From Branchiostoma floridae (lineage: Eukaryota > Chordata > Leptocardii > Amphioxiformes > Branchiostomatidae), in contig NC_049982.1 in NCBI RefSeq assembly GCF_000003815.2, positions 1,209,604-1,273,603 on the forward strand: a stretch of 64,000 nucleotides of DNA. The letters are read 5' to 3'. The stretch's first letter is position 1. Each line of letters starts with the position of its first letter. Under the pieces are notes generated by a model, which ran no database searches, was not told the origin of the DNA, and saw nothing but the letters and a program-made list of their open reading frames with translations. This document shows, piece by piece, positions 69 to 64,000 of the stretch. The position numbers were made by a program, and so were the translations under genes.

Positions 69-6567
<6,499 letters not shown>

Positions 6568-19175: not shown

Positions 19176-20344
19176 ATGGTAAAGATGTGGAAGTTCCTAC
19201 TGTTCATCGCGGCAGTGGTCGCCTGGTCGGACTCGGCACAAGGTGAATATACGATATCAATTGTAGTTTTTTATATTTAATACCATACATGAGATAGTGG
19301 TGGAATTTATTGTTATTGTTGTTCAATATTGATAATTGAGACAAAGAGAAATATATATGGAAGTATTGAATTACTTCAAAGTTAGATCTATCTGCTTACG
19401 AAGTTTGTATTTCATTATATTTGATAACTTACTAGTTTAACAAGTTATGTGTCAATACTCCAGTCACATATACCTTCAATGTGCTAGAATATACAGATGC
19501 GGAGACAGTGATCACAACTTTCCGTTTGATTTCACAGCCGACAATGTGTACCTGACCACGCTAGGAGGCTGGGATTTCTTTAAAGTCCCCGCGGTTGGCG
19601 CGATGACCAATTCCAACGTGATAGCGACTTGTGGGAGGGCTGGGATGGCGTACCCTTGCTGGTGGTCACGTTATTCTTGTAACTACGATTGGGACCAAGG
19701 CTGTATCAAGTTCGACGATGGCGGACACTGCGATACTCTTATCGCCCTCTCGGTCAGTTTGTGTGGGCACGAGCAAGCTTGGTACTGTCAGCCCCTTTTT
19801 GACACCTTTGTGTACTACCCAAACTTGAGCTGGCCATACCATGACGACAGTGCCGGGGGCTTGGATTACGAAAACGTCCAAAGTGTGGACCACGGGCAAA
19901 ATGTGCTGCACGGATCACACTATTTCAATAAGTACGCCCTGTGTGCTGCTAAAGGTATGAGATAACAATTCTTAGGAATATGAATACTTGTAAATAGTCA
20001 TATTTCAGACCATTATTCATTGGTTAGTTTGTTCATCACGCACAGCCGAAACAACAGATCATGACGTTTTAACTATTGTTAAGATTTAAACTCCTTTTTT
20101 TTTCCCTGACTCAAAGTAACACAATTGTTTCTTCTCACAATAGTGTGGAATGTCAAACTTATACTTGATTGATATCATTCTATTTACTCTCTTTTGTTGA
20201 GCCACTACAGCCTGTAAGAGCCTGTAAGCTTTTTCTGTATTTTTATATATTAAAAGGACATGTATAAAGTTAAAGCTCACAACTTGGTCGTTCATCCTTA
20301 CAGTGGGTTCCCACAATGGCGGCACTGACGTCTTCACGGGCTGA
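19176..20344 (+). CDS. Gene C: minimal secreted Dom1-only protein
   Basis: Three exons, 19176-19242, 19538-19954 and 20304-20344, give 174 residues: a signal peptide (MVKMWKFLLFIAAVVAW), one complete Dom1, and a 13-residue tail ending in TGA. Dom1 keeps all eight family cysteines and the FVYYP and YALC motifs but differs more from the others and begins ADNVYL rather than GQxVYL. The third exon has a good acceptor (CATCCTTACAG) and is followed by AATAAA at 20403-20408. It contains no EGF, CTLD or C-terminal module. If the donor at 19954 were not used, the frame would stop at 19965, two codons later. Either it is a truncated copy that kept its function, or it shows that Dom1 can stand alone. 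Confidence 0.7.
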
Positions 20345-35400: not shown

Positions 35401-37179
35401 ATAATTAGCCTTCATCGATGTTCGTACAGTTTTATAGTTATTTGTTCAACTAAAATATTGACATCGTTCAAAAACAGGTCCTATTCAATGGTCATCAAGT
35501 GAGCCAGCCGCTCCCTGCGAACTGTGTGTTCTCCTGGACAGCAGCGACAGCTTCCTAGCCAGGACAGCACCGTGCACGGAACAGCACAACTACGTCTGCC
35601 AGTCTGGCAAGTCACACCAATTAGCTAATGCCAATAGGAAAAAAAAATTAATCCAACAGTGATTGTGTGCTTTAAAACAAATTCTCACGTACATGTCTAA
35701 AATGATAGACTATTAGTACACACTCCAGGCTGTAGTATAGTAGTATACACTCAAGGATTTCAAGCGCAACATTCTCTTTCTCCTTCTGTTTTGGTGAAAC
35801 CGGTTTTTCTTAATATGCAAATATTAAAAAAAAATATGTAGTGTATCTTTTTTCAGCTGAGTTCTAATAGTGGTCGACGTTAGCAATAAAAAGAAATAGC
35901 ACATGGCAACATGTGATACATTTTATTTTAAGTAGTTAATTTTAAGTAGTTCTAGTTCAAAGTTAATCAGAACTTCATGCTCATTGTTGCTTATCTTTTG
36001 ATTATCTAAGACCTGAAGCCCTGTGGACGAAACGTCTGCCAAAACGGCGGCATCTGCACCTCCTGCTTCAACGACACTGCTGTCTTCTGTGACTGTCCTG
36101 CTGGGTTTGACGGGAAGTTGTGTGAGATAAGTAGGTACTTTTATGGTCTACAAAAGACGTTTCTTAGACCTGCATTTTTAACTTATGTTCTTTCTTATTT
36201 TGAAAATCATACGTGCAAATATCGCAACTGATTTGTATTTTGACGTTGTGTACAGAGATGTGTAGACTATTTCATCTTAGACTAATAGTATAAAGGACTT
36301 TTCTGAAAGCATTAGGACAGCTGTCTGGCATAAAGGTGAGAGCAATCCTAATAAATAAATAAATAAATAAATAAAAGCAAAAGTATGAGAAGTCTTCCGA
36401 AGAAAACGTTGGCCACATCAGTACCTACCATACTTTACGTTTTCATACGATTATACATTCGGTTATAGTAGATATAAAACAGACCAGAAGCTTTCTACAA
36501 TCTGACAACAACCCGATGCTTCAATAATTGAACAGACATCGACGAGTGCGCCTCCAACCCCTGCCGAAATGGCGGAAGCTGCCGTGACGGCACCAACTCC
36601 TACAGCTGCAGCTGTCTCACCGGGTTCCAGGGTGACCACTGCGAATCTGGTAGGAGTGATACTTTTCTCTCTTTTGCCTATCGTAGCAACAATCAAATAA
36701 ATTTCTATTATGATCCATGCCTTTATTTACAGCATTTCGTCCTTAGATTTGCAATCTTGAATATTTGTTTTATCTAGACATGGACTGGTGCTCCCAGGTC
36801 CAATGTCCCCAGGGCTGGGTCTGTCAGGACTACACTTTCTACTTCCAATGTGCTGGTGAGTACATTTTATCATTATTTAAAAATCCGTCTGATATACAAC
36901 AGTTAAAAGTGACAGTTGGTTTGTCACTATCTACCATTGTAAACCTGACACCCGTGGCACCGGTCAATTTTCATATAATCGCAATTGTAGTAGGTTTTGG
37001 TATTTGAATGGAAGGCTGGTAGCGAAATACCCGTAACGGCATATTTGATGTATACACCTCCAGATCCTGCTCCCATCACCAGCAGGATGATCCCGTACCA
37101 GTGCAGCAGCGCCTCCTGTCCGGATGGCATGTACTGCACCGAGGAAAGCTTTGCGTCTTTCTCCTGCAAGGCTGAGTGA
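23476..37179 (+). CDS. Gene D: expanded lectin-like protein with three Dom1 domains
   Basis: Eighteen exons join in one open frame of about 980 residues: 23476-23542 (signal peptide), 24621-25031 (Dom1), 25874-25984 (EGF), 26604-26993 (Dom1), 29367-29483 (EGF), 30371-30484 (EGF), 31357-31758 (Dom1), 32672-32773, 32939-33049, 33793-33903, 34227-34337 and 34523-34636 (EGFs), 35002-35226 and 35478-35606 (CTLD), 36011-36130 and 36536-36649 (EGFs), 36778-36855 and 37064-37179 (C-terminal). The EGF at 32672 lacks the usual DxNEC start; the one at 34227 has YTCCCE, an extra cysteine. The CTLD second exon uses a GC donor (G|GCAAGT). The third Dom1 has two extra cysteines. A 100-base gap lies in an intron, so an exon could be hidden. 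An alternative reading is several partial duplicates of which only the last block is used, but no second promoter or poly(A) site was seen between them. Confidence 0.75.
25090..25500 (+). repeat. Imperfect repeats in intron 2 of gene D
   Basis: The motif GAGTCCATT(T/G)TTG..., a short G-rich step, then TTTTTTAAA and CA(A/G)TTTTGGAC occurs at about 25119 and 25240, with a weaker trace near 25460. A related stretch (AAAAGTCCATTTTTGCA) lies near 12733 in gene B. It is noncoding. Confidence 0.45.
27330..27400 (+). pseudogene. Relic EGF exon start in gene D
   Basis: The intron end GCGCATTGTCTTATGTTTCCAG matches that before the EGF exons at 32939 and 33793. The exon opens with ACATCAACAAG, then reaches a stop within a few codons and loses all EGF similarity. 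It is a truncated duplicate of an EGF exon. Confidence 0.55.
28738..29345 (-). repeat. About four tandem units of ~152 bases
   Basis: Units begin near 28741, 28889, 29041 and 29193 with TCAAGTTCAA or TCAAGGTCAA and share GGCCCAAA(A/G)TCA, CCAAAAATC and GAGATACAGCGC. Reverse-complemented, they resemble the internal repeats of the 50106-51215 element. The array ends just before an EGF exon. Confidence 0.7.
33280..33379. other. Assembly gap (100 N)
   Basis: Exactly 100 N, a usual placeholder for a gap of unknown size. It lies in the intron between the EGF exons at 32939-33049 and 33793-33903 of gene D. The flanks resemble DNA after the EGF exon at 29367 (shared GGGATCAAACCTTGC), so collapsed duplicates are possible. 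Confidence 0.98.
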
Positions 37180-40232: not shown

Positions 40233-43200
40233 ATGGCAGAAATGTGGACGATCCTTCTCTTCGTCGCCGCTCTGGTCGCCTGGCCGGACTCATCGCAAGG
40301 TAATAATTATAAGTTTGAATTCTATAGTTATTATTTGTCAGTTTATTAAAATGTAGTAAGCTAATTTTGAGTTTCTTTAACTATTCTTCTGTTCACACGC
40401 AACGTGAGGCATATAAAAGCTCCCGAGTGGGTCCATTTCGACCCCAGGCGTACATTTTGAAGTGCCATTTAATCATTTTTAATCTGAAGAAAAAATCCTT
40501 CCTTGACTTTGTCAGTCAATATGTCTTATACCTTCTCCTTAGTTTTCGCAAAGATTGGTACAATAATGTGGAAATTATAAAGAAAGTTTGTGTTCAGTCC
40601 CTCTGGGGTCCAAACGGACCCCAGCAAAAATGTGCAGTTTTTAAAACATACTTTGGAGACTTACTACTTAACAACTTACAGTATGACTACCAAGCTTTTA
40701 GATAATAATAAGAATGTAAACCTAAATCATCACAAAAATTTCTGTGTCATCAACATGTAATGATATAATTATGACGTCATTTGCCTAATCAGGGCGGCCA
40801 TCTTGGATTTTGACCAATGACGTCATGAAATTAGCATAAATTATAAGTTTTAAGTCATGAAAATTACATCGAATTTATTAAAATTTAATTGTCGTCAAAA
40901 ATCAGGTGTAGTTTACCAAGAAAACCTTGTTTAGATTGAACTTGTCAAATTTTGGCAAAAATATGCCTGTTAGAATATGGTTGCCATGGCAACCCCCAAA
41001 AATGATAAACTTACTTTATTGACTAAAAACTTTGAAAATAATATTTTGTGATAAATTACCAAGTTTTGTAGCTTTAGCTCTAGCCGTTCATGAGTTATGC
41101 GACATAAATGTTGCTGAGGGCCTCAAAATTCCCCTATCTGGTCGGAAAAGGTTTAGTGCAAAACGTGGTCCTTCTGAACTTTTGCATAAATTATGATAAT
41201 GGCTTGGAATTAGCAACACCTTAACATCTCAAAATCTTCCTCTTACATTGACGAAGCAAGGTATATACCGGGATCGCCGATAAGAAATGGTACTGAGATT
41301 TTATGAACAAAACATTTTGGGGTCCGTTTGGACCCCACTCGGTCATTTTAGTCGCAAAAAAAGGTCGGGTGCTTGAGGGTTAACATGAAATGTCTCAAGA
41401 TACAGCACATAACCCCAATATCACACGGTTTGTAAAAAAGTAGTGTTGATATTATAGTGAAAATAAGCTGATTATACTTTTCATAAAAATATTGGCAAAA
41501 TATTGGATTTTACAATTTTCATCATAAAAGTAGCATAAATCAGTAGTAGTAAAATCATTCTTTATTCATAGTAAAGAAAGGTACACGGAGCCCAGGACAC
41601 GATGGTCATTATTGACCAAACATGCAGGGGGACAAAGGACATAACATAGATAGTATTGCACAATGTGGGTATTGCTTATCATTACTTTTAAGAAAAAACA
41701 TTATATTTAGTTTAGTTCGGTTTTCATATTTCTAAATTTGATCTAAAATCACAACATTTCAATCATCAATATTGTCCATACAGATGCTCTACATTTCTCA
41801 GCCTTGTGGGTTTCTACAATAGCGTTTCTGACTCCCAATGCGGTTCGTGGCGTGAGTTCCAAATAGCATATGACGATAACATCGCAAGGCGGCTTATATC
41901 AGTAAACAGAGTCTTCGGTGGTTTGGCTTTAACTATTTTGAACAGTGTTCTAAGCCTGGTCTTGTTCTCTGGCGTGACGAGCCCTCTTGATCCGACTTCA
42001 AAGCAGGTTAGTGTAGCGGAAATGCCAGCAGTTTCTAAATCTGCCGCTAGGGTGCTGTATTTGTTGACCTTTCGGTCGTGACTTGTTTTGATGTTCTTTT
42101 CAAAGGGTACAGTCAGTTCATGGATGTGGAGGGTCTTCTGTTCTGGTAAATATATGATCAGGTCTGGTTTCTGGGTAGTGGGTATTGTATGGACCTGGAT
42201 GGTACCTCCGTTAGTTGTGTAACCTTGTATGTCCGCATAGATGGTGGCGTTGATCCGAGAGGTGTCAATGGACTCTATGATGGTGTCCGTTATGTGCTTC
42301 AATCCCGAGTTGTGTCGGAATGTGTACCGTCCTTGTTGGAGAGCGACACCGCAGTGGTTCAGAACGTGGTGGAGTGTTTCCCGGTTGCCACACAGTTTAC
42401 ATTTGTCAGTGTTACGTTTTCCCCAGGTGGTCAGGTTACAGAGTGTGGGGAGGGCGTCGATGGAGGCACGCACAGCGAAACTGAGGATGCCCCTCGGCAG
42501 GTTGTACATAGCGGACCGCCATGTCAGGTCGCATTTTTCTTCCTCAAGCAGTTGTAGCATCTGCCCTTGCTGTAGAAGGTTTTCCTGATGTTTACTCCAG
42601 ACGTCATGACGCATATCTGTGACTTGTTGTTTGACATGTTTACGTATTGATGTCCAATCTGAGTCCTTTGCTGCATGGATGGCTTGCTAGTGATGGTGTG
42701 ACACTTTCCAATACCCCATTTCTGCATTTTCCTAGTCCATTGCGATTCGCGATCCAGTTTGGCTTGTAAAGCGTGTTTTACCTTCTCATCTGCTTTGAGG
42801 ACTGGCCTACTGTAGGCCAGAGCGTGGGCTTCTAGGTACAGGTCTGAGATGCTTTTGAAGTTGAGACCCCTTGTGTTGTACAGAATTGCATTTGTTGCAC
42901 TAGGTTGCATTCTGAGCCATGTTTTGATCGCCTTTGTGTGGATAGAATCAAGCTTTTGTAGCTGGGTGTCTGTCAGGTCGTGCACCATCAGCATGTACCT
43001 CCAAGATAGGAGGCGTACTCCATGTAAACCCTGAGTTTGTACTCGTTCCTTATCGCTGATTTGTTTATGTTTTCAACAGTCGTTTCTATTGTCTTTGCTA
43101 GGATGTCATAGGTCTCTTTTGTTTTACTCAGGAAGGTGATGTAGCCACCTAGGAATTTCTCCGGTGCATCTTTGGTCGTTTTGACAGGGTCCCCATCTAT

Positions 43201-46200
43201 CATGAAGCTGATGTCCGATGGCTTCCCGCTCACTATAGACATAGACTTACACTTGCGTGGTTTTAGCTTTAGGTTCATTGACTTTGTGTTGGAGGAAATT
43301 TGAGTAATTAGTTTCTGATGCTGTCGTTTGTTTGTGGTTATGAGGCAAAAGTCGTCTGCGAAAGGCAGTGTAACATAATGCTTGTCATTGAGGTTGTAGC
43401 CGTGTTGCTGCTCTACTCCCTTGAGATGCTGTAGGATAGGCTGGAACACCGTTAGGAAGATGATGGGTGACAAGTTGTCTCCTTGGAACACTCCTCTTCC
43501 GAACGGGAACGGATCACTTTCCCAGCCTGGACCCTTCACTTTCCCTTTCAGGCGAGAATACAGGTTTTTAATGTAGGTGGTGATAATTGGCGGGAAGCCG
43601 TTTCTCTCCATCTGGTAGTAGATCAGTTCGTGTTCCACGGAACCAAAGGCATCCGCGAGGTCAAACCATGTAATGTGGACTGTACGGCGGTTTTTCTTGG
43701 CATGTGCTAAGATCTCCCGCATAACTTGGACATGCTCCACACAGCCGTTGATTCCGGTCAGGAATGCCTTTTGTGTTTCTGGGTCTATCAGATCATTGCA
43801 AGTCATGTACTTTACCCATCGTTCCGAGAGTATTTGGTGGAAAATCTTGGAGACGCAGGAAGTAAGGCAGATCATTCGAAAGTTTTCGGCAGCTTCTGGA
43901 CTACCATCCTTGTGTATAAGTGACACGTTACCAGATGACCATGATGTCGGTGGGTCTCCGGACTCAAGCAGTTTGGAGAACAGTGTACTAAGGAACAGGT
44001 GACAAGCTGGCAGGTGCTTGAGGTGGCCATACATGATCCCGTCCGGGCCAGGTGCAGATGTAGCGCATCGTTTGGATAAGACTGCCTTAATGTCTTTCGG
44101 CCTGACAGGTGACATGTCAAAAGAGTTCGCAGGTACTTGTTCCTCCACCGGCAAATGAGGAAACCAGAGCAGTTTGTTGAAGTCAACACGGGTTGGGTGT
44201 GAGTATTTGTTTTTGTAGTACTCATTTGCATAATAAACAGAGAATGCCGGTTTTACTGGGGGGATATCGAGCTGTCCTTTTGCACATTTACCGGCAAACT
44301 TCCAAAAGTTCTTATGATATTCTTTCCCTTGGTGTGCTGCCGATTTTGTAGTTTCCTTTCGTTTCTGTTGTCGCTTCATAAAGGAGTATGTTTTAATTGC
44401 ATCTCTGAAAGCCTTTCGATCCTCAGGTGTTGCGTCAGCTCTGAATGCCTTCTTACGTAGCTTGTTTTTCAGGCGTTTTACTTGTGCGAGAGACTGTGGT
44501 TCGTGGCTTATATAGCCTTCTAAGTGACTTTCTTCGGTAGTGTGGCTGAACTCTGGTTTACTGGCCATAAAGTCGCACATGATGTCACTGAATCCCTCCC
44601 CAGCTAGTTTGGGGGACATTTCATTTGTGGCCAGTTCGTGGTGGAGCGGGCCTAGCAGGGTTTTCACATCATTGTTATACCCAGACCAGGTATCAGTAGA
44701 CACCAGTGGCAGTTTAAAAGACATAAAACCATCTGTACCTTTAGCAGCGACGATGACCAGCGTGAATCATGAATATTTCTATTATAAATGTCACATTAAT
44801 GTATGATAGACATAACGGATATATATAAACAACTGTAGTTTAGCAACAGAATCTTGAATCCCCACCGTTTCAACTAAAATTATACCTTGTAGAAAATGTG
44901 TTGCCAACAAAATTTTAGGAAAACTCACTAAGTTTGGTTGTCATAGCACAACAAGCTGTTTGGAAGTTATAATAAGTCAAAGTTGGTGTAAGCACTTTTA
45001 GCCTGGATAAAGTTACCTTGTCATGTTTTTGTTTTGGTATACCTTTTCAGTAACATTGTTTTTCGCGAAAGCTTACAAGCTTGGATCAGGTTTGGGAATT
45101 CGAATGTACTGAAAGGCATGAATGTAACGTTTCATTCGCTCACACATGGACGGACGCTTTACTGTTTTAGATGAATGAGGTGGGTGTTTTAAAGTGTTAC
45201 AGGAGTCACTCTCCTGAAACCAGTGATTCTAGGCAGGGATGTAGCGATATTTACGAAGTGAAGGCGAACACTCGTCGTCTGAAATCAGATTTAGTTTTAT
45301 TAACTAGCTATCTAGCTAGTGCTTGTCAGTTTCTAAGATCATTGCGGGTAGATCCGTAAAATTATCTATGAAAAAAGATTAACCTTTTATCTTCTTGTCT
45401 TCAAGGTCAACCTGTCTACCTGACGACCCACGACGGATGGTCATTTTATAAGATTCCTGTCTCCGGCCAGATGACCAATGCCAACGTCAAGGCCACGTGT
45501 GAGGCGGCCGGGATGAGCTACCCGTGTCACTACTCAGGTGGTGGCAGGTGTACTCACCACTGGACATCAGGCTGCATCAGGTTCAGGGACGACGGTGTCA
45601 TCTGTGATACCCAAGATCTCCTCTCTCCAAACCTGTGTGGAAGTCTGGTCACTGTCGCATGGCTCTGTCAGCCCCTCGATGACACATTTGTGTACTACCC
45701 TGGCGGCTGGCAGGGGCATGACAGTGCCTGGGGAGTGGACGTCGACACTCACAACTGGGCCCTGCCGGGAGCAAACTACAACAACATGTACGCCCTGTGT
45801 GCAGGTAAGAGTGTAGCCTTGTTTAGTTATACAAGACAGAGGGGGTCTGGGTTTAATATCACCGTAACGTGCATATTCCTAGGGCGCTCACAAAACGTCT
45901 GTTTACTTTTGTGATGATCAACAGAATAGTTTTCTCGCCCATTAATTGTTCTTTAAAGGGAAAAATGTCTTTTTCTTTAAAAATACAGTGACTACTTCTT
46001 GGCCTTTCCCCTTTGTAGTACATGATAGTAATATGCCAAGAAATATTTCACGGCACACCTATTCCTGTATTAGGTGTCATAAGGCCTAGACATTTGCTTT
46101 GACCACCGAATAATTTAAATCAAAATTACAGTGCGAACCAGGTGATTTTATGAAGTAGCATTATGACACCAAATACACCAAGGGATAGGCGGGTCATAAC

Positions 46201-52200: not shown

Positions 52201-53686
52201 AACAGCAATATTTGGATTGATGCCATATCCAACTTGTGCGTTTTTTCTTGAGCATCTAGGCCTGCCAATAAAGTATAGATGCGACTTCTTGTTGATTTTA
52301 TTTTCTCAATGGCTAAAATCTTGATATGATTTTGCTAAAGATGTAATGGAGTTTGATGGTGTGTGCTGTTATCTGAAATACTTGTATTTCTAAATGTAAT
52401 CAGAAAACTTTAGGTAAATTGATGGATTGATTGATTGATTGATTGATGACGTCATCTATGTCATTGACCTATTCCAATTTTACCTGACTCCAATTCCCTT
52501 TTTCTTCATCAGCAATCGACTGGTGCCAGTTTACTCATTGTCCGTTCAGTTGGACCTGCCAGGCGGCCACGTCCTCCTTCCAATGCGTCAGTGAGTGCAG
52601 TCTTATTTCTTATATTAGATCTGAATGCACTCTAGAACTATCGTAGAGTGGAATTTGTTATCACCAAGCACAGTAGGGACATCTTCTTAAGATAGTTTTA
52701 AAGAACGCTTGCAGATAGATGTGCAAAAGTTAGGTGTGACGGATCGTTCAGTGTAATATAACCAGCTGCTGTCGCGCCGCGGGCCTGCGAAGCTGGTGTG
52801 TTACACTGACGGGCGGTCATACCGGCTATATAGATACAGATACAGTCTTCGTTACTACGTAACTGCAAAGCTAAGTAGCATTTTAGTTTTCCCTAGTTGA
52901 CGAACGATGTGACAAAGTGCAAAAAAAATGAGTTAAAAGGAGAGGTAGTTCGATAGAAAAGTGTTCTCAGACGAACTAGAGTTACTGTGGCCGAGAAACG
53001 ATCTACAACACTGTCACATTCCCATCTATTTCTGCCTTCCAACTGATACTACAAATCGCTAGTTTGACAATCTATTTTTGGTAATCTTAGCTTTGTGCTG
53101 ACAAAGTCGGGACAGATTCTCACTATATTTATTTGATCATGACAGGATGATTAATCAACAAGTGAACAAACCTATCTGAGGGCTGTTCTTAATCCATATA
53201 TGTAGCCAGTATGCACTCTATGGCACAAAAATTGTCAATATCGGCAGCGAGAGAGCGTATACATAAACAAAGTTTAGATAAGTCTTCATTAATTTCAATT
53301 CAATCTAACTAACATATAAATGTTTGCAATAATAAAACATGGATATCGGCCCCATTGATTTCTATTGGCGTATATTTTCCATTACTTCTTATGTAGTTGG
53401 TAAGTCATCTTACGGATCTATTTGTGACGACAACATTGTAATAATTGTTATTGTAAAGATAACATTCCTATACGACGTTAATATGCCTCCCTTCATCTTT
53501 TAATTATTGCTTCCCTTCATCTTTTAATTACACGGAGCACTGTTTTCAAAACTTGTGTTGTATTTTCTTGCAGACCCTTATCCCGTTGTCCGGGAGTTCC
53601 GTTACCAGTGCAGCAGCGCCTCCTGTCCGGATGGCATGTACTGCACCGAGGAGGGCGCTGCGTCTTTCTCCTGCACGGTTGAATGA
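40233..53686 (+). CDS. Gene E: Dom1-EGF(5)-shortened CTLD-EGF(2) protein
   Basis: Twelve exons: 40233-40299, 45406-45804, 46967-47077, 47501-47611, 47876-47986, 48084-48194, 48398-48514, 49040-49216, 49629-49748, 51293-51406, 52513-52590, 53574-53686, about 542 residues in one frame. The signal peptide is [17 protein letters not shown]. Dom1 is complete. Three tandem EGFs of the DDC-ASSPC type precede one with WLGGTC. The lectin part is unusual: one 177-base exon joins the start of the CTLD ([12 protein letters not shown]) directly to its last residues (YYVCQSG), so the middle is missing. The first EGF acceptor is uncertain (46955 or 46967, both in frame), and the donor at 51407 (GTCAAA) is weak. 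Intron 1 holds an antisense retrotransposon. The product is probably secreted; without the CTLD core, sugar binding is doubtful. Confidence 0.75.
40415..41386. mobile_element. Repeat with paired GGGGTCC/GGACCCC ends, possibly piggyBac-derived
   Basis: GAGTGGGTCC...GACCCC at about 40425 mirrors GGGGTCCGTTTGGACCCC plus ACTCGGTC at about 41321. The right end reads GCTTGAGGGTTAA, which resembles a piggyBac-type end at a TTAA site. No matching left TTAA end was found, so it may be truncated. It is noncoding. Confidence 0.35.
41790..44760 (-). mobile_element. R2-like non-LTR retrotransposon, degenerate
   Basis: It lies antisense in intron 1 of gene E. Three minus-strand reading frames (44724-42988, 42994-42524, 42614-41814) carry, in order, a reverse transcriptase and an R2-type C-terminal region. 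It is broken by a frameshift near 43000 and a stop or frameshift near 42690. The N-terminal zinc finger/Myb part expected of R2-type elements was not seen, so it looks 5'-truncated. Confidence 0.75.
41814..44724 (-). pseudogene. Reverse transcriptase / restriction-like endonuclease (broken)
   Basis: Reverse transcriptase signs: APGPDGI, the [14 protein letters not shown] palm motif, [10 protein letters not shown], and the catalytic FADDF. Further on, a C-x2-C-x7-H-x4-C knuckle ([17 protein letters not shown]) is followed by PDLIIY and HELTVP, the pattern of the PD-(D/E)xK restriction-like endonuclease found in R2/NeSL/Hero/CRE-type retrotransposons. An APE endonuclease is not seen. The reading frame is lost twice, so no full-length protein can be made. 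It presumably has no role in gene E beyond lengthening its intron. Confidence 0.75.
46495..46625 (+). repeat. Minisatellite of about four 30-31-base units
   Basis: Units start near 46500, 46531, 46561 and 46592 with CTGATTGG or a variant, then TCATTGTCAT and ATACACC. Three ATTGG (inverted CCAAT) copies lie at 46503, 46533 and 46563. It is in intron 2 of gene E. Confidence 0.75.
50106..51215. mobile_element. Repeat element with inverted ends and internal tandem repeats (copy 3)
   Basis: CTCTTCGCC at 50106-50114 pairs with GGCGAAGAG at 51184-51192, followed by GAACTCTAGTTTA as in copy 1. The inside has several ~150-base units with TAACTCGAGAA, TTTGGTAGGTG and GGTCAAG. A 47-base direct duplication lies at about 51083-51176 (TTTAGTAATACATGAATAAG). 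It is in the intron of gene E between EGF exons. Confidence 0.6.
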
Positions 53687-53754
53687 CGTCACAGAGCGTC
53701 AGGCATGCAACTTGCAGCCAAATGTTAATTCTAATTTGATTTCAGATTGAAGAG

Positions 53755-53760
53755 AATAAA
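53755..53760 (+). terminator. Poly(A) signal of gene E
   Basis: AATAAA lies 69 bases after the gene E stop codon, in a 3' UTR like that of gene D. Confidence 0.8.
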
Positions 53761-54330
53761 ACACTTCAAAGATAATATTCACAGTTTCAGCTCTTTCCTG
53801 ACTAATTATATTAGTTTTTTTGTAAAAAGAGTTTTTCTCATTATGATTTCAACAAATTTTATATATCTATTTTCAACCCGTAGCAAGCATTTTTTTGTAT
53901 CTTCATGGAACACTTTAAATACGTTTTGATTAAAAAACTGTAACGAAATCTTAATTTCACATAATACCACCCATCAAAGCAGTCTAAGTAAGTCAGTGAC
54001 AAATTTATGCTGTACGCCTTTAAGAGAACTTAACAAATAGATAAATAAACAATAGCTTCTAGAATTTAATTCTAAAGAATAGAAAATTGTACCCATTTCA
54101 AATTTACTAGTATGTAGTATTGATTAAATGTATTTGTCGATGACGCTGTATTTTCCTCTCCGTATTCGGTACTTGGTATGACCCATCTTGTGTGCTACTA
54201 TTCAAACAGTCCAAAGGTTCACTACAGACCAGCTGTGGCATAACTAAATTTACATTTACATAACCTCTGCCAACAAGAAACACGGAACAACGGAGCGGTT
54301 GGTATAACTACATCCTAACCCTTCTCGAGG

Positions 54331-55619
54331 ATGAACTCCCGGAGGACCCGTCCCCGTGCCGTTACCGGGGTGTTGTTGCTGTTGTTGGCGGTGGTCTGTT
54401 CGCCCCTACACCGAGGGGCTGCCGTAGCTGTTGCGGTGAGATCAAACGGAGCCGTCGTAAGTGCCGGCATGGCAGATTGTTTTTGTGTGTGTGTGATTAT
54501 CGCTTGGTACGTAGGTTTTCTCACCGCAGAGAAATTTCCGCAGCAACTCGATCCAAACTTTAGCTGAAGCAAAACCGGGCTTTTTATTAATTTTAATTCG
54601 GCGTTGGTTAAAGAGCCAATTAGAGTATCGTAACTGATTTCACAACTGGACACACCAGATAGCCTGCGTGCCACCCTCCATTGCGAACGCTGACTCTTTT
54701 CAATTGTTAACGACAGCGTTAGAATATTAATATCTCTACAAACATAGGCAAGCACGACATGGTTGCTTTCAGTGAGCCCTCTACTTGGCAGAGGAAGAAG
54801 ATAAAAAACAACAATTCCCCATTGGGAAACAATAATTAGTAGATCACTGTCTTTTTCAGCTTTAGATTTTGTACCAATGCAGAAAGATACGGAATGATGA
54901 TACATCTACCAAACTGCTGTACTTATTAAGTGAAATTTCAATACTAAGATCTAGTGATACTTCTGTTATGTTTGTGGGAGGACGTGGAAGACGTACGGAC
55001 GTACCTACTTCTTACCCAATAACATGTCGTTTCTTTGGTTTTGATAGTAGAATTACTGTCAGTGATTAAATTGAACTTAAATCCACCAGGACCCGGTAGT
55101 GAATGTTGCACAAGGCAAACCCGTGAAAGCGAACGTGACCTGCGGCAGCCCTTTGGAGGATTTCTACCCACACAGCGACTTACTCAAACCTGCGTCCGAC
55201 AGACAGATACAGAGGTGTGACGCAAGGTGCTGCAAACATTTTCTTACTGTATACAGGAGTTAGTTCTGATTAGAGAAGCCATCATCGCTCTACTACAAAA
55301 TTTCACCATGTTTTGATCGAGGTTGCCCAGAAAGAAAGGACGTTCTACATATTATGAAATATAAACCTACTATGGCTGCAGTGTTAGATACAGCATACTT
55401 GCCAAAGTAGGAACAAGAAAGGCTAGCCTTGGTACTGAAATGTAAACTGAGAACACTCCCCCAGTCAATGGTAAAAGACAGTAGAAGCTCGGTAGCCTAG
55501 GCACGGTACTTCGAATTTATTCAGTTGCTGGAGTGACTTTTATTTTTGCATCGTGTATCTCTTTTAAGGTAATTTGATTTGGGTTTTAACCTCAATCACA
55601 CCACCCTTAGATATTTCGA

Positions 55620-55707
<88 letters not shown>

Positions 55708-58512
55708 CTCTGAATAATGGCATTTCACATCACTACAGATTGAATCAACATAATTGAGATTTCAATTCATAAAATTTTCATCAATCAGTGACTGCAGCTG
55801 CTCCTTAAAAGTAACCACACGTACCTCCAAATTTTCGATGGCCATCATTCCATCTTGATCACGGACTGACCTAATTCTGGCGAGAGTTGGGAGAACTAGG
55901 TCTAGACTTTCGCGGATCTTCTGGACGTACGCATGTTTTTTTTTTTTTAACTAGTCACCGATTGATGTAAATTATAAATGTGTATATACGTTACTAAGGA
56001 ATATCTTAAACGATTGGGATTTCGTCTTTACAGCAATCCTTCCCTGGCCCACAATGCCTCACTGATGACTGATGGCAACAGCTCCACCTGGTGGCAGAGC
56101 ACATCACTGCAGCAGCTGATGCTGTCCGGGAACGGGGTCGGAGATCGAGCAGAGGTCTCCATAACCCTGGATCTGGGACAGGTATTTTCAACGAGAAGAA
56201 ACAACAACTCTTTTATCACGTGTGAAGTTTATGTACATTGTATAATTTGGATGTGTGTCAGCTTTTGTCCTTTTATGTTTGTTGATAAGATCCACAGGTA
56301 GAGTAGCTACAATGCACTTGTATATTTCTTCAAGATCGACATGCTGTCGTCATATACATGATAATGATAACATGACGTCATTGTCATCAGTTTCCGTGAC
56401 GATGACCTTTCACCTGTTCCTGAACCCATACAGACGTACCACCCTGAGAACATCACCATCCACATGGGTGATACCATCCGGCCGGGACGGCTGGCCATCA
56501 TGAGGTCAGCTGACGGACTGAACTTTGACCCCTGGATTTACCTGGTAACCAATGGCAACAGGGACTGTCGCAGGTTCGGGGTTGCCAAGCAACCAGAGCC
56601 GGACAGCCCGGAATCGGTGGTGTGCCGGGAGTACGCACAACTGGAGCCGCAGCTGTATAATGAAAGGGTGTGTGGAGTTTGCAACATTAGCTATTTGTTC
56701 TTATAATCGTTTGTCATTGTCATTGATTATCAATAATAAGAATTTTTCATATTGTAGGACAGTACTAGTAAGTAGTAAAATAATAATACGAGAAGTATAG
56801 CACGGCTAGTTGGTTCCAATCGTAGTAATGAGTGACGTTGTAACGTGCTCATATTTCAAAAATACGTTATTTTTGTTGAGAGCCACACCCCATCCACTGT
56901 AAAGAACCCCCCACGTGCGATGGTGCGGTGTGCGATGGTGCAAATTCTTTTGTCTGGAGTTGGTGACTCACTTCGAATCACCCGGATGAAGGCCCGGCGA
57001 ACCTCTGTTTCGTATCAGCCACATGGTGACTTGGACCATTTACCCGGACGGGAGACCTGGCGCATCCCCGTCTTGTTACCGTCTTGTCTCCGACAGGCTG
57101 AATAAAAGTTCAAAACTTGAACTATGCGGCTCCAGATGTCTTTCTGAGGGACGACTGCAGTGTGCAAGATGTCGCGGTAGCTTGAGGGATGAATCTGCTC
57201 TACTATACATAGCCAGCGAAAGGGTATGTCACCCAGAAAAAGGCGGTATAACTAGTCTCCAAGCAGACGCTACGGTACCTTAGAGATAGTATTAAAACTG
57301 ACAAGGGACTGAATATAGCGGTGCCCGTTTGACTCCCTTTGGCCGACTATACTCCTTGGCCTGCTTTGATACTAATGTTCACATTACTTATTGGCACTGT
57401 ACAAATTCTGAATTTGAAATCTAGAGCTAAGGCACCATAGGGTCTGCTTGGAGACTACGGTATAACCGTGTCGTGTGTAAGCACGTCGAACGATGATGAA
57501 GATGATGATAAAGAATCATACTTTCTCCCCCAGATCACCGTGTCCCTGTCGGAGGTTCCCCCCAGTTTCAGTGATGAGGCCCGGCAGCGCTGGCAGGCTG
57601 TACGACACCTGCAGCTGCGCTTCTACGACATGGACCTGGTGCTGGGGACATCTGCAGACCAGTTCGTGAGTATCTGCGTCTGTATAGCTGGTATAACCGC
57701 CCTTCGGCGCAACACCCCACCTTCTCAGGCACGCGGCGAGGCAGCAGCTGGTCATATAGTACTAAACGACCTGTCAAACCTAGCTTTTGTGCAAGTGTTC
57801 TTAAAAAATATCCAGAGAAGATGCCGCTTGGTGATAACATATTCCACTCTAAGATAGTTCTGGTAAAATACAAATTTCTAAACACATCAATTCTAGGTTT
57901 GTAACTCTCTTACTTGAAGGCATGGCTGTTTCTAGTTCGTTTTTAAGCTGGTGTTAGATACTTATCAGTCGGTAGGTTCACCAGTTTTGGGTCATTTTGT
58001 ACATCATCCAGAGTGAGTACAGCAATCGTCTTAGATATTAGCTGTTACGCCCTGGTCCTGTTTATTTTGCTTTGTTTTATTTAATGGGTTTACTCATAAA
58101 CTGCAATGCTTGATTGATCATTGCTTGGCATTTGGGTTAGAAGAGAAAGGGTGGATTGGCAGAAAGCTTGTATTTGATAGCTTCTGGCTAATGTATATAG
58201 ATATAAAATTTAGATAAGATACTCTAGGGCTTATTGGTTCAACAATTTTAAACCTAAAAGTATTGCCGGATTGTTCTGTTAGGGCCAATGTTTATTTTAT
58301 TTACATTTTCCCTTCCCAGGACCACCATGCAGTGTCGGCGATCTCTGTTATGGTCCGTTGCGAGTGTAACGGATTTGGGAAAGGTTGTGAAATCAATGCA
58401 GACTCCGGCCAGTATGAGTGCATCTGCAGTGGAAACACCCAGGGCCGATTCTGTGAGGAATGCAAGCCTCTGTATAACCAGTTCCCCTACCAGCCTGGTC
58501 GGCCCTGCCAAG
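54331..58512 (+). CDS. Gene F: laminin N-terminal + laminin-EGF head (3' end open)
   Basis: Six exons read in frame: 54331-54456, 55090-55226, 56034-56181, 56434-56667, 57534-57665, 58320-58512, about 323 residues. Exon 1 gives a signal peptide with a leucine-rich core (TGVLLLLLAVVCSP). Exons 2-6 match a laminin N-terminal domain: VTCGSP, CDASNP, STWWQS, VSITLDLGQ, RPGRLAIMRSADG, DPWIYL. The final exon is one laminin-type EGF with eight cysteines (CECNGFGKGC through RPC). Such domains occur in laminins, netrins and usherin and act in basement-membrane assembly or guidance. The last exon ends in a donor (CAAG|GTACTG) in phase 1, with no stop or poly(A) signal before the lectin-family exons from 59091. 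It is either the head of a fusion with gene G or a gene whose 3' part is lost. Exon phases here (0, 2, 0, 0, 0) differ from the phase-1 lectin cluster. Confidence 0.8.
55622..55705. repeat. (AT)n microsatellite
   Basis: About 84 bases of AT repeat, interrupted once by CCTT, in the intron between exons 2 and 3 of gene F. Confidence 0.95.
56880..57115. repeat. Dispersed SINE-like repeat in gene F intron
   Basis: It contains TAAAGAACCCCCCAC and TGCGATGGTGCGGTGTG, shared with 18590-18640, then a GACCATTTACCCGGACGGG stretch and a final AATAAAAG. It is noncoding. Confidence 0.45.
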
Positions 58513-58622
58513 GTACTGTAGAGTGGTATCAGTTGTTTTGGTTGTGATATTGGTATAGGTAGATAGTCCACTAACATTTTCAAGACAGTAGGAAGAGAGG
58601 GATGTTATCCACTGCGTCGAGG

Positions 58623-58702
58623 CATTCTCCTACGCCGAGACACCCAACGGCAAACTACATCCGGATATAGTTCTCCGTTGGATGTCTCTGCGTAGGAGAA
58701 TG
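58623..58702. repeat. Near-perfect 28-base inverted repeat (hairpin)
   Basis: Arms 58623-58650 and 58675-58702 pair with two mismatches around a 24-base loop. The first arm starts CATTCTCCTACGCCGAGACA. It sits between the laminin-EGF exon and a SINE-like sequence. Confidence 0.8.
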
Positions 58703-58704
58703 TG

Positions 58705-58873
58705 TCTAGAACACGGTATGGGAAGCCAGAGCCCATCCCTCTTCTTTCACTGCCTTTACCTCTCCAACCGAAGTTACTGACAGTTACCCATTTACACCTG
58801 GGTGGAGTGAGGAAAGTCGCTGGCACGTCAGGGGATTTGAACCCAGGACCTTTGGTTTCTCAGCCAAACACCC
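58705..58873 (-). repeat. tRNA-derived SINE-like sequence, minus strand
   Basis: Reading the minus strand, a TTGGCTGAG A-box-like motif (about 58854-58867) precedes GGTTCAAATCC, a perfect B box (58833-58843). A CCCAGGTGTAAATGGGTAAC stretch then follows. This is the layout of a tRNA-headed SINE. Confidence 0.6.
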
Positions 58874-59090
58874 CAATATGACGTCACTATGTTGTGGCAT
58901 TTTAGATGAATAATAAAAATGACTAGCAATCTCATTTGATTTAGTGTAAGTCTAATCTCATTTGAAATGGCAAGATTGGGTTTCTATTACAGACCATTGT
59001 TTGAACTGGGCGTATTCATTTTGAAATGGAGTCTTATTGACTTTAAAATACTTATGAGAAGAAAATGATTCAATTTAAATCTAATTCAAG

Positions 59091-59966
59091 GTCAACGAGT
59101 TTACCTGACGACCATCGGCAGCTGGTCCTTTTATAAGGTTCAGGCCTCTGGACCGATGACCAGTGCCAACGTCAAGGCCACGTGTGAAGCGGCGGGGATG
59201 AGGTACCCCTGCTTCGCCTCAGGTCGGTTTATTATTGTTTATTGACTCCTTTAGTTGTTGACAGCATATCACTGCAACATCTAATCTTCTGTGAGTAATA
59301 ATTACACATAACATTTGGACACACAAAATGCACAACACATAACATATATTACATGTCATTCAAAAAGTTATCAAAAAAACGCATGTGCCTTATCAACGTT
59401 ATCAAGTACCTCATGTGTCATTAGCTGAGTTTCGCATGTGTTTCACTAGCTGCTGTCTAAACATCTTGAATGTACTCACAGTTTGCAACTTATGTACTAG
59501 TTGGTTCCATCCGGATGTTGTTATATAGGTGAAGGATTTCTTAAGGCTATTTGTCTTTGGTTTCTCAGTTCTAAATTTTTCCGTGTTGCATGTCTCGTAT
59601 GGTAGCCGTGTTTGTTAGATACCAGATGTAGTCTACAGTACAATGATGATGGTTCGTTGGAAAGAAGTATTTTGTGAAAATAAACTATTGTCGACGTTTT
59701 TTTAAAGGTCGGTGCACCGGCTACTGGACCCCCGACTGCATCAAGTATGACGACGCCGGTGTCAGCTGTGAAACCCACAGGGTCCTCTCTTTTCATCTGT
59801 GTGGACATGATAACCCTTATAGATGTGAGTCCCTTGATGACACCTTTGTGTACATGCCTGAATGGTGGAGCGACGACAGCGCCTGTGGAATGAAATACAA
59901 TACGGACAAATGGTGGTGCGTGCGTGACTGGAGCAGACGTTACCAACCTGTACGCCCTGTGTGCAG
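59091..59966 (+). pseudogene. Dom1 exon of gene G, broken by insertion and frameshift
   Basis: The exon opens normally (TTCAAG|GTCAACGAGTTTACC, giving GQRVYLTTIGSWSFYK). It is interrupted after TCAGGTCGGT at 59228 and resumes at 59706-59713 with GGTCGGTGCACCGG. Past the insertion it reads well to TDKWWC, then a one-base shift puts the YALCAG end out of frame. No signal-peptide exon is visible upstream. It could not encode Dom1 as it stands. Confidence 0.75.
59229..59705 (-). mobile_element. 5'-truncated LINE 3' end inserted in an exon
   Basis: An 8-base target duplication AGGTCGGT flanks the insert (59221-59228 and 59706-59713). On the minus strand the insert ends in AATAAACAATAATAA. It encodes a stretch with YETCNTEKFR, KSFTYITTSGWNQL and FRQQLVKHM before a stop, the usual look of a non-LTR polymerase C-terminus (CR1/L2/jockey-like). 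The clade is not settled. Confidence 0.65.
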
Positions 59967-60560
59967 GTAGGGATAAACTTGAGATCGTTGGTTGCCTTTC
60001 TATTATCGACGTCAGCATGCACATAATCATGAAATATTAAGTTACTTATTTCGTATTTAACACAATATGTACCTATTCTGAGAAAGAATAGTTCCTAGAT
60101 AAACGAATCTGGTATCTAGTGTCTCGAGTTGGACTTGTTTACAGAGAAAAATAGGATTAAAACCTTGAATATTGAATAGAATTTTCTTTTATGTCCGATG
60201 ATTCCAAATATGCAAAAAACATGGACCTTATGTATGTGGGGTAGATATTCTAATGCAAGTAACGATGGTTTAGAAAATTTATCATCGTATTACCACTTGG
60301 CTGTTGCTTGATGAATTCATGCAATATTGGTTAGTTACAGAGTGTTTTTTTCTTATAGATTAAGTAGCTAGATAAAAGTAAATAATCTGATTTATCGATT
60401 GATGCTTAAAGATATTTGAATGCCACAGTCATACGAATCCATTCATAAGTATGGTTGTTGGACCTTACTTGTGAGCCAGCGGGTAATATGATTGACTTGA
60501 ATTCCTTTAGTGGCTTCGAAAACTAACATTGTTGCACAACACTTTGATTCATATTACCAG

Positions 60561-63500
60561 AGTGCGAGACCTCCACATGTGTCCATGGAACCTGTACCGA
60601 TAATATCTGTACGTGTGAGAACGGCTGGGAGGGTACCAACTGTGATCAAAGTAAGTATTCTTTCAATTCAATAAGCTAATATCTTCATCGTGTATACATC
60701 TACCGCCTGATACAATCAGAGGAATCAATTTAAGAGTCGCCACCTTTTGGTAAATGCAATACAAATTTCTAAGTGAAATTATAGCGGAATTCATGAAAGA
60801 ATCGATTCATACACGGTACGCGTCAAACCAACATTCTTAGTAGAATATGATGCTACCAAAGTTTATGCTGCAAACTTGTTGTTATAGTGTTGTGACTAAG
60901 ACTCAGGCTTGCGATTTAATTGCGCTGTACCTGTATCTATAACTAAAGGTCTTGGAGCAATGTATTATTTTATGCAATCCATATTTTATACAATCCATTA
61001 AACTAAATTTGTGTCGGGTTCCGGTAATTGTTGTCCACCCCACGTGAACTCGGGACCTGCACTGAACCTGTACATATCCAAGAATGACATATACATTTTC
61101 CATTCCTATTAAAGCCTTGAACACAACATGTACAGAAATTCTGTAACATTATGATTGATTAGGTGCATTTTATATTCATACAGATATCGACGAGTGCGCG
61201 AGCAACCCTTGTTGGCAGGGAGGGACCTGCCTGGATCACGTGGACGGCTACAGCTGTGTCTGTCCTAAAGGTGCCACCGGCAAGAACTGTGAAACTGGTA
61301 CTACTGTTTTACCTTAGTCAAAGACTTCTTACTTGTTTTTAAACATTAATAAAGGGTTAATGCCCCGGCCCGAGGTGTATATGGTGAGATAATCCCTGGT
61401 CAGGTGCGATAACCACCGAATAAACCACCGGGTGAGCGTAGCGAATGAGGTACGACACTGGTGCCGGTGTCGATGCAAATCGACACCGGTGCCGGTGTCG
61501 ATTCATTCTGACCAATCAGGGGAGCGATACCCACCTGCCTGGCCTGACCTTCTGATTGGTCCGCGGCGCCTGGCTATATGATAAAGGTAATTATAATGGT
61601 AATTATCCATATCGTGGTACCGTTTTGCAATGTAATATTGTTCCGGAAATCATCAGCATAAAATTGTCTAATCAGTATAACATTGACTGATATTACTGGC
61701 TGTGTTGGAAACGTGAGGACCAACATTTACGTTTGTGTTTGTAGATGATGCAATCACAGTTATAGAAAAATCAAATGATCTTGATCGATTAACGTTTCGA
61801 AAAAAGTATATTCCAATACAAATGTAAAATCATCATTTAGTTTTCCAAAGCAAATTAATCTAAGCGTCGTTTGTAATAGAGGACGACGAAACAAGCGTAC
61901 CCTTTGTGCAATATTTTCACTCCAGCATTCTTTGCCGGTGAATGCTACGAGTTCTCGTCCGAGGCCCTAACCCATCAGGAGGCAACACAGGCCTGCAGCG
62001 TTAAGAACGGCCATTTGGTGGATCTGAAAGACGAGCAGGAGCAAAGGTTTCTTGCTGACAAGCTAATGGCGTCCAATGGAGCTTCCAGCTGGCTGGCCGT
62101 AAGATCGGCACCAACAGCCTTTTTGTACAGCAATGGCTCTCCAATTTCAGGTAAGTAAGACCAGTCTTTCACAATGGATTTGTATGGACCAGACGATTTG
62201 TTTTCTTCAACGTCCACTCATCTGAGGGTGGCGATTGAAATAAAAGACCAGTAATTAAAGAAAATAAACAAAAGTGGATAATCATGTGGTAAAAAGCTTA
62301 TGATTTCTTTGTTATTTATACAGTTTTATTGTAATAGTAAATCAACTAAAAAATTAATACCGTTCAATACCAGGTCCAATCCAGTGGTCTTCCAGTGAGC
62401 CAGCCGCTCCCTGTGACCTGTGTGCTCTCCTGGACAGCAGCGACAACTTCCTGGCCAGGACAGCAGCGTGCACGGAACAGCACAACTATGTCTGCCAGTC
62501 TAGTAAGCCACTTCATTTATTTTAACCCCAACTGGAAGACAACGATAATTCACCAGACTGAGGATTTGTGTACTTTACAGAAAAATCCTCCCGTATATGT
62601 GCGAAAACGGTAGATGATGAATAGAAATATTAGCTTGGACACTCCAGGCTTTTAAGCGTAATTTTTTCTCCTCTTGGTGCACATGTAAGTGTTTTAATAT
62701 GCTTATATCAACAAAAACTTTCTCGTTGTTGTTTATTTTTAATTCTGTAAGATATGAAGCCTTGTGGAGAAAACGTCTGTCAGAACGGTGGTATCTGCTT
62801 CTCCTGCTTCGACGACTCCGCTGCCTTCTGCGACTGCTCTGCCGGGTTTGACGGGAAAACCTGTGAGATAAGTAGGTGCTTTGCTACTATGTTAGCTCGT
62901 CTGTCATAAATGGGATTTTTTACACGTAATAGACTTTGAATAAAACTTACATCAACATTTAGCACTTCGGTTCCTATCATACTTGATAATTTCATACATT
63001 TATACGTCGATGATAGCAAATACGAAACAGAAACTACTCCAGCTGTCACAGTTTGGTGACAACCCGATATTTAAATATTTGACTAGTGTGTCCTGCCAAA
63101 ATGGCGGAAGTTGTCGGGAATCAACATCAGCATCAACTCCTACAGCTGCAGCTGCCCTATAGGATTCCACGGAGAATTTCTTTAGCCCAACCTAGCAAAT
63201 CAAGTAAAACTTTTATTATTAGGCATGTCTTTATTTACAACATATCCCGTCCTAACCTTTTCCAATCTTGGACCCGTTTTCTCCAGACATGGACTGGTGC
63301 TCCCAGGTCCAGTGTCCCCAGTACTGGGTCTGTCAGGACTACACTTTCTACTTCCAATGCGTTCGTAAGTAAATTTTTTCATCGTTTTGTTATCAAAATG
63401 GCTTTTAAAAGATCTTGTAATAAACTACGGTACAGAGGAATGATGGATTTGAACAATGCTGACTGAGTTGACATCCTGTTTTCACTGTAAACGTTCTACG

Positions 63501-63658
63501 TATTCGGAAGCGTAACAAAATAACACTTCATATATATTTCAGATCTTGCCCCCATCACAAGCAGGACGATCCCTTACCAGTGCAGCAGCGCCTCCTGTCT
63601 GGATGGCATGTACTGCACCGAGGAGAGCGCCGCGTCCTTCTCCTGCAAGGTTGGCTGA
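60561..63658 (+). CDS. Gene G: lectin-family tail EGF(2)-CTLD-EGF, lacking its own start
   Basis: Seven intact exons: 60561-60650, 61184-61297, 61926-62150, 62374-62502, 62752-62871, 63287-63364, 63543-63658. The first EGF is short (30 codons) but keeps six cysteines. The second has [12 protein letters not shown]. The CTLD spans two exons ([30 protein letters not shown]). One EGF ([12 protein letters not shown]) and the C-terminal 4-cysteine pair follow, ending in TGA at 63656-63658. The exon that should hold the last EGF is broken. No promoter or signal exon is present. Joined to gene F, the seven exons plus its six give 1842 bases, 613 codons and a stop, uninterrupted. Otherwise this is a decaying duplicate, but its remaining exons carry no stops, which argues for recent or continued use. 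Confidence 0.6.
63085..63185 (+). pseudogene. Broken EGF exon of gene G
   Basis: CCAAAATGGCGGAAG and CATCAACTCCTACAGCTGCAGC match the EGF exon at 36536-36649 of gene D. The DIDEC start is gone, the two halves are in different frames, and there is no donor at the end. Confidence 0.65.
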
Positions 63659-63731
63659 CGTCACAGCCCAAGCCTCGTGCGCGCAAAAGGCAATCAACTG
63701 CTGGATCTAATTTGATTAGAGATGTAAAAAA

Positions 63732-63737
63732 ATTAAA
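63732..63737 (+). terminator. Poly(A) signal of gene G (ATTAAA variant)
   Basis: ATTAAA lies where genes D and E have AATAAA, 73 bases after the stop codon. It is the common functional variant. Confidence 0.55.
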
Positions 63738-63947
63738 GCGGTTCAAAGATGATACTCGACGTTTCCACTCTTCCGTGGCCTTTGCACCGATTGTCCTGCT
63801 TCAACGTGCACTAAGTACTGGGAATGATTTACTGTCAGAAATATTTGATTTTATGATTGCGTTTGAACGGCAAGGTGTGTTGATAAAATACTGGGCTGAA
63901 CCCTGTACAACAACCATTGAGCCAAGGCAATATGGACGAAGACAGAA

Positions 63948-64000
63948 ATCTTTATAGACACGACAAAAGTACAGCGACTTTCGTAAGGTCTACATGTATA
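63948..64000. repeat. Edge of a dispersed repeat
   Basis: TCTTTATAGACACGACAAAAGTACAG matches AAGCTTTATTGACACGACAAAAAGTACAG at about 11185-11213 inside the gene B intron. The repeat runs off the window end. Confidence 0.5.

Follow-up and report, generated by a model that had tools for sequence, protein, structure and literature searches.

A probable exon-shuffled gene at the edge of a C-type lectin-like array in Branchiostoma floridae, with a laminin-like 5' end

Towards the 3' end of a 64,000 nt stretch of the Branchiostoma floridae genome (C4:1209604-1273603, NC_049982.1; referred to here as the window), six exons encoding the start of a laminin-like protein are followed by exons of a tandemly repeated C-type lectin-like family, and the question raised by this locus is whether the laminin-like head and the lectin-like tail belong to one gene and, if so, how they came together. 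An initial annotation of the sequence proposed that exon shuffling at the edge of a tandem array had captured a new 5' end. The present analysis, in which 513 Mb of genome was searched, points the same way, since a second copy of the arrangement, a probable parent of the head on another chromosome (C2) and the loss of a signal exon from the array unit were all encountered. Capture of a 5' end at the array edge is well supported by these comparisons, and the unit is probably an exon-shuffled gene formed in DNA, in which the 5' end of a laminin-like gene on C2 was captured by the lectin-like array on C4. The copy in the window is referred to as F1, the second copy on C4 as F2 and the head copy on C2 as F3.

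The six head exons of F1 (54331-58512) total 970 bp and are all open; they code for a signal peptide, then a laminin-N domain (LamNT) and one LE module. Pfam matches to Laminin_N (4e-29) and then EGF_laminin (1.2e-4) were obtained, and the nearest structures in the PDB are laminin alpha-1 (1.8e-24) and alpha-5, followed by gamma-1 and netrin-1. Alignment to the F2 and F3 copies placed the donors of exons 1 and 2 at 54456 and 55226; the queries to Pfam and the PDB used an exon 1 that ended short of 54456. Exon 6 ends in a phase-1 donor, CCAAG/GTACTG, of which CCAAG/GTACT is common to F1, F2 and F3. Exon frames, Pfam matches and alignment thus bear out the earlier description of six open laminin-N and LE exons ending in a phase-1 donor at 58512. 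No further LE modules and no laminin or netrin C-terminus were found in F1; instead, lectin-array exons come after LE1.

The array to which these exons belong spans 84 kb, from 20 kb upstream of the window to the window end, and its units have the order signal exon, D domain, EGF exons, two-exon C-type lectin-like domain (CTLD), EGF exons, Cx and Ct; some stretches repeat D or miss parts. The F1 tail keeps the array order D, EGF, CTLD, EGF, Cx, Ct, with damage to D and to one EGF exon, EGFd. Its seven other exons, beginning at 60561, 61184, 61926, 62374, 62752, 63287 and 63543, are all open, the six internal ones are 1-1 symmetric, and the CTLD matches Pfam Lectin_C at 3.8e-8. Joined to the head they give 1842 bp with one terminal stop, exactly as had been calculated from the sequence before, and encode 613 aa. 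That this length is a multiple of three is weak evidence alone, because any phase-1 donor joins 1-1 exons in-frame, and its use as strong evidence was rejected on that account.

A search profile was made from eight signal exons, of which seven belong to this array and one lies near F2. It recovered eight in the 84-kb array at E <= 2.2e-11, namely its own seven members and one new one, but detected no array signal exon in 53601-59100 or in the F2 counterpart (best E = 19), in agreement with the earlier observation that the lectin block lacks one. Seven terminal exons in the array leave six intervals that follow one, and a signal exon is present in five of the six; the remaining interval (53687-59090) holds the laminin head and no signal exon. 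With a cutoff of E < 1e-4, no array exon was matched beyond 63658 in the 30 kb that follow the window, which places the F1 unit at the array edge.

A protein search of the same genome with the head, in which 35 of 35 candidates were scored, returned 19 matches: five for each of three close copies, two on C4 and one on C2, and four distant ones with 30-41% identity. In F3, the copy on C2, the six head exons and the phase-1 donor all recur. Beyond that donor all four downstream pieces tested match EGF_laminin, and the LE exons are followed by a Thr/Ser-rich open reading frame (ORF) with 138 Thr and 44 Ser among 469 readable residues (5781 bases being N), while no lectin-array exons were found in the 33 kb after F3, 6581 bases of which are N. 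As a whole, C2:1253747-1274934 holds LamNT, several LE exons and a mucin-like Thr/Ser-rich ORF broken by a long N stretch. By blastn, F1 and F3 are homologous from 54112, some 220 bp upstream of the start codon, to 58549, which is 37 bp past the exon 6 donor; patchy similarity reaches as far as about 110 bp into that intron. The locus therefore has two sources, the head being like the C2 LamNT-LE gene and the tail like the C4 array. The C2 gene is the probable parent of the head, and the simplest reading of the alignments is that its 5' end, with the proximal promoter, was copied into the array. The LamNT-LE-LE layout of the C2 gene, which is of the usual kind, speaks against copying in the reverse direction.

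The head-tail unit recurs on C4 near 2.85 Mb, on the opposite strand and 1.6 Mb from F1 (the genome search that placed the window, F2 and a repeat in head intron 5 scored the best 40 of 5249 candidates). F2 extends from the preceding gene's terminal exon through its own terminal exon, and its exon order matches: six head exons, D, EGF, CTLD, EGF, Cx and Ct. The F2 exons are open piece by piece, with D interrupted by an insert. In both copies a phase-1 donor meets a phase-1 acceptor at the junction; alignment of the junction introns shows 37 differences over 574 sites, with the donor identical through +5 and the acceptor region identical. Because the unit is duplicated, misassembly or prediction error is unlikely. 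The window does contain 100 N, which might suggest that a laminin-head contig was misjoined next to the array, but there are none in 53001-64000, and the junction, including its intron, is assembled again at a second, diverged locus, so that an artefact of this kind seems extremely improbable. Duplication of the DNA alone is nonetheless no proof of a fused transcript.

The tail might alternatively be spliced from the upstream array gene (gene E), the laminin head being a mere passenger in a long intron. The 1-1 phase of the tail exons would permit this, and the array stretch 24615-37170 has several D domains with no terminal exon between them. However, gene E has a terminal exon of its own, with a stop at 53686, and the 14.5 kb searched upstream of F2 yielded nothing but that terminal exon; splicing from gene E is accordingly considered very unlikely.

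Comparison of F1 with F2, by simple NG86 or single-site counts of nonsynonymous and synonymous change (dN/dS) with no codon model, provides a measure of constraint. There are 0 indels in the 970 bp of the head against 10.5 expected (P about 3e-5), the expectation being drawn from three introns selected because they align well (18 events in 1666 bp); taken over all aligned non-coding sequence, F1 and F2 show 20 indel events per kb. Nonsynonymous changes number 54 in the head against 67.5 expected (P = 0.002), 15 in D against 21.5 (P = 0.006), and 37 in the tail from EGFa to Ct, without EGFb and EGFd, against 67.3 (0 of 4000 simulations). With F3 as outgroup, the head in the F2 lineage is constrained (21 of 39 changes nonsynonymous, P = 0.01); ten further head differences have no lineage assignment. 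Simulations by lineage used a transition/transversion ratio of 1.2, the observed head counts being 42 transitions and 49 transversions, and the absence of stop codons per lineage is uninformative (chance 0.21 and 0.24). The substitution and indel tests indicate protein-level constraint for some time after duplication, clearest in F2; for the head, the indication of constraint since duplication is moderate, and marginal in F1 alone.

A number of observations weigh against a working fused gene, and these are considered here together with the alternatives that they favour. Non-coding divergence between F1 and F2 is higher in the 3' half (0.180) than in introns 1, 4, 5 and 6 (0.105; P = 3e-12). 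The 5' value becomes 0.128 once the 5' flank, intron 2 and intron 3 (0.196, 0.188 and 0.000), none of which entered that test, are counted as well. Given this greater 3' divergence, some of the constraint on the tail may date from before the fusion. The shift in divergence along 53700-63900, compared with C4 2.85 Mb, hints at gene conversion or a two-step history. The head had been said to lack a poly(A) signal, which is not quite right, as AATAAA occurs at 58912 in the junction intron and the motif is also present in that of F2. Together with a stop that is reached 35 bp beyond the exon 6 donor on reading through, this would suit a truncated laminin-head gene that is polyadenylated within the intron following exon 6 and yields a short LamNT-LE protein, beside a promoterless lectin-like relic. 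There is precedent for caution, in that a lancelet model fusing Lectin_C and fn2 was refuted with expressed sequence tags (Banyai and Patthy 2016, PMC4967905, a case recounted again in PMC6071037). Conversely, neither copy has lost the donor motif, which is also found in the C2 gene ahead of an LE exon, and the tail is strongly constrained between F1 and F2 yet has no recognisable signal exon. A head-only gene is thus regarded as improbable.

Also common to both junction introns is an ATG-initiated ORF of 32 codons with a phase-1 GT (58682 in F1). It is unlike a signal peptide, with a best 10-residue hydropathy of 1.34 in F1 and 0.57 in F2, as is a 23-codon ORF at 59065 that crosses the acceptor in both copies (-0.42 in each). 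The most hydrophobic ORF of the F1 junction intron (58967, 2.02) is altered in F2 (-0.08), and the most hydrophobic one of F2 (2.03) has no counterpart in F1. On these comparisons a separate start for the tail appears unlikely.

The remaining adverse points concern damage to the exons. D is a single open exon in six of six array copies tested. In F1 it is interrupted by a repeat, and a tandem duplication of GTGC in its right half, where F2 has a single GTGC, shifts the frame, so that a reading of F1 through head, D and tail meets stops; the frame is open through the fusion only if the frameshifted D half is skipped. EGFd is dead, and EGFa is four residues shorter between Cys3 and Cys4 than in relatives, its acceptor having probably moved. 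Constraint on the head in the F1 lineage is marginal (26 of 42 changes nonsynonymous, 30.5 expected, P = 0.08). In F2, EGFb was not found, D is split by an insert (C4:2853565-2852896) that contains a 23-bp minisatellite and a repeat different from that of F1, and by eye EGFd has lost its sixth Cys. The F2 minisatellite (about C4:2853.2-2852.9 kb) has nine exact units plus variants and grew from the junction of repeat end and exon sequence. The F1 stretch 59223-59707 was also considered as an ancestral intron and rejected, since D is uninterrupted and open in the other array copies tested and the sequence is a repeat found genome-wide, with at least 40 other matching rows (best 40 of 175 candidates scored).

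Such lesions, with the marginal constraint on its lineage, would be expected if F1 were a plain pseudogene of the fusion, the functional representative now being F2 or none, a reading that is compatible with capture of the C2 5' end by the array. Set against it are the open head and seven tail exons, running for 1842 bp without a premature stop, the lack of any head indel relative to F2, and the fact that skipping of D would preserve the frame; the chance that F1 is a pseudogene falls only a little short of even. The window copy may now be relaxing and the gene decaying, and a full-length product today would arise only by skipping D, or not at all. The six-plus-seven exon chimera of the initial annotation holds in respect of its frame, but it omits the first tail domain, D (halves from 59091 and 59708), although D formed part of the original fusion, and splicing from 58512 to 60561 would need D skipped. 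Similarly, the proposed order LamNT-LE-EGF-EGF-CTLD-EGF-Cterm is a possible reading of the damaged copy, but D originally came after LE, and no second EGF exon (EGFb) was found in F2. No LamNT-CTLD gene in lancelets was found described in the open-licence PMC literature, searched mostly as titles and the starts of abstracts.

The D-exon inserts of F1 and F2 both lie at AGGT, a motif that occurs three to six times per array D exon (its own donor included), and AG/GT splicing could restore the exon exactly. The presence of two different repeats in the same D exon is suggestive of possible intron births from transposon insertions. It can be conjectured, though doubtfully, that promoter-plus-exon capture gave rise to a young family with the order LamNT-LE-D-EGF-CTLD-EGF-Cx-Ct, which was duplicated and works on via two independent intron births in D.

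If the unit is indeed an exon-shuffled gene, its history would be as follows. The part of the C2 gene that runs from about 200 bp of 5' flank through the signal exon and the laminin-N domain to the first LE module, together with the beginning of the following intron, would have been copied and inserted at the 3' edge of the C4 array, in place of the last unit's signal exon. Because the phase-1 donor of the head meets the phase-1 array acceptor at D, LamNT-LE would be spliced onto D-EGF-CTLD-EGF-Cterm and the product secreted; transcription would proceed from the captured promoter, with LE1 spliced to D or, in F1, past D to the EGF exons. The fused unit would then have been duplicated within C4 to give F1 and F2, F1 later being damaged in D, by the insert and the 4-bp frameshift, and in one EGF exon. 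What the DNA shows is the two sources, the junction between them, the duplicate unit, the frames and the lost signal exon; the direction of copying, like an expressed chimera with its fused transcript and protein, is inferred. The features of the locus are collected in Table 1.

Table 1. Features of the F1 unit and its immediate flank (window coordinates)
Feature	Coordinates	Strand	Basis
Terminal exon of preceding array gene E (matched part)	53591-53686	+	Array comparison; also beside F2
5' flank common to C2 head copy, probable 5' untranslated region/proximal promoter	54112-54330	+	blastn F1-F3; last ~100 bp aligned
Head exon 1, start codon and signal peptide, donor GTAAGT in 3/3 copies	54331-54456	+	Alignment
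Head exon 2, laminin N	55090-55226	+	Pfam Laminin_N; equal length in F2, F3
Head exon 3, laminin N	56034-56181	+	Pfam; alignment
Head exon 4, laminin N, two codons longer in F3	56434-56667	+	Pfam; alignment
Head exon 5, laminin N	57534-57665	+	Pfam; alignment
Head exon 6, laminin N end and LE1, phase-1 donor	58320-58512	+	Pfam; alignment
Junction intron	58513-59090	+	blastn; alignment
D domain left half, array-type acceptor ...TTCAAG/GTCAA	59091-59222	+	Alignment
Multi-copy repeat inside D exon, AGGTCGGT at both ends (59221-59228, 59706-59713)	59223-59707	.	Genome search; alignment
D domain right half, with GTGC tandem duplication (about 59916-59923) shifting frame	59708-59966	+	Single GTGC in F2
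EGF exon a	60561-60650	+	Alignment with relatives, F2
EGF exon b	61184-61297	+	Array comparison
C-type lectin-like domain exon 1	61926-62150	+	Pfam Lectin_C
C-type lectin-like domain exon 2	62374-62502	+	Pfam; alignment
EGF exon c	62752-62871	+	Array comparison; alignment
EGF exon d, degenerate, frame broken	63083-63190	+	Array and F2 comparison
Cysteine-rich exon Cx of array family	63287-63364	+	Array comparison; alignment
Terminal exon Ct, stop codon	63543-63658	+	Array comparison

The D domain is cysteine-rich, about 130 aa long and encoded in one exon; 12 copies were aligned and have 27 invariant columns. Seven are in the window (2721-3116, 9650-10042, 19546-19947, 24620-25033, 26603-26995, 31368-31760 and 45405-45806) and five more lie outside it. 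Searches of D against Pfam gave scattered weak matches only, to five families with 1-5 of the 12 members each (best E 0.0057), and against the PDB a single match (E = 0.45); D looks like an uncatalogued domain family of the array. By eye, a reverse-transcriptase-like ORF of 592 aa lies on the minus strand at 42000-44766, between the signal exon and D of gene E. Head intron 5 contains a copy of a ~360-bp repeat (57670-58014) with dozens of relatives at 82-83% identity among the matches listed (best 40 of 5249), and the repeat inserted in the F2 D exon is of this same family.

The head shares LamNT and LE1 with laminins and netrins, from which the F1 unit differs in its single LE module and in that no coiled coil, LG or NTR was seen. 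The PLENGE stretch has a role in laminin polymerisation; that of laminin alpha-5 aligns with PQLYNE in the head, and since the stretch is missing from this LamNT, laminin-type polymerisation is not predicted. The tail, in turn, resembles C-type lectin-like proteins with EGF modules, of which the selectins are an example, in having a CTLD beside EGF modules, and E-selectin was among its PDB matches; the array family differs in adding the uncatalogued D domain and in its noncanonical CTLD. EPN/QPD and WND are the calcium-site motifs of carbohydrate-binding C-type lectins. By eye, EPA replaces EPN in F1 and there is no WND; EPA is also found in array gene D, and EPS in array genes A and B. Since the usual motifs are missing, sugar binding by the CTLD is not predicted. 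Judged from its domains alone, the product would likely be a secreted extracellular matrix or defence protein.

Exon shuffling in lancelets is both known and disputed, and the F1 fusion is a concrete instance. Huang et al. (2014, PMC4284660) reported that lancelets have the fastest exon shuffling in metazoans, biased to 1-1 exons, with translocated regions enriched in transposase and reverse-transcriptase fragments. F1 shares with those cases its 1-1 phase exons, repeat-rich surroundings and new domain combination. It differs in that a whole 5' end, from promoter to LE1, would have been captured rather than one internal exon, and in that one event is traced here to both sources and the junction, whereas that work counts events genome-wide. 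Banyai and Patthy (2016, PMC4967905), on the other hand, considered such lancelet differences to be probably gene-prediction errors. As in the fusions treated there, F1 has a C-type lectin domain beside an unrelated extracellular module; unlike them, its tail is without a recognisable signal exon and the arrangement occurs twice, features that a prediction error would leave unexplained. That dispute turns on transcripts; the evidence for the F1 fusion given here, of a kind that a prediction error cannot supply, is from DNA. C-type lectin domains are also over-represented among dispensable genes in two lancelet species (PMC12373286), so that individuals may differ for the F1 unit.

The locus thus touches the dispute between an exceptional rate of new lancelet domain combinations and gene-prediction artefact (PMC4284660, PMC4967905), and a single genome still contains the putative donor gene and the recipient array, together with the junction and a second copy of the unit. 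It also illustrates how capture of a promoter and signal peptide could rescue an array-edge gene that had lost its own signal exon.

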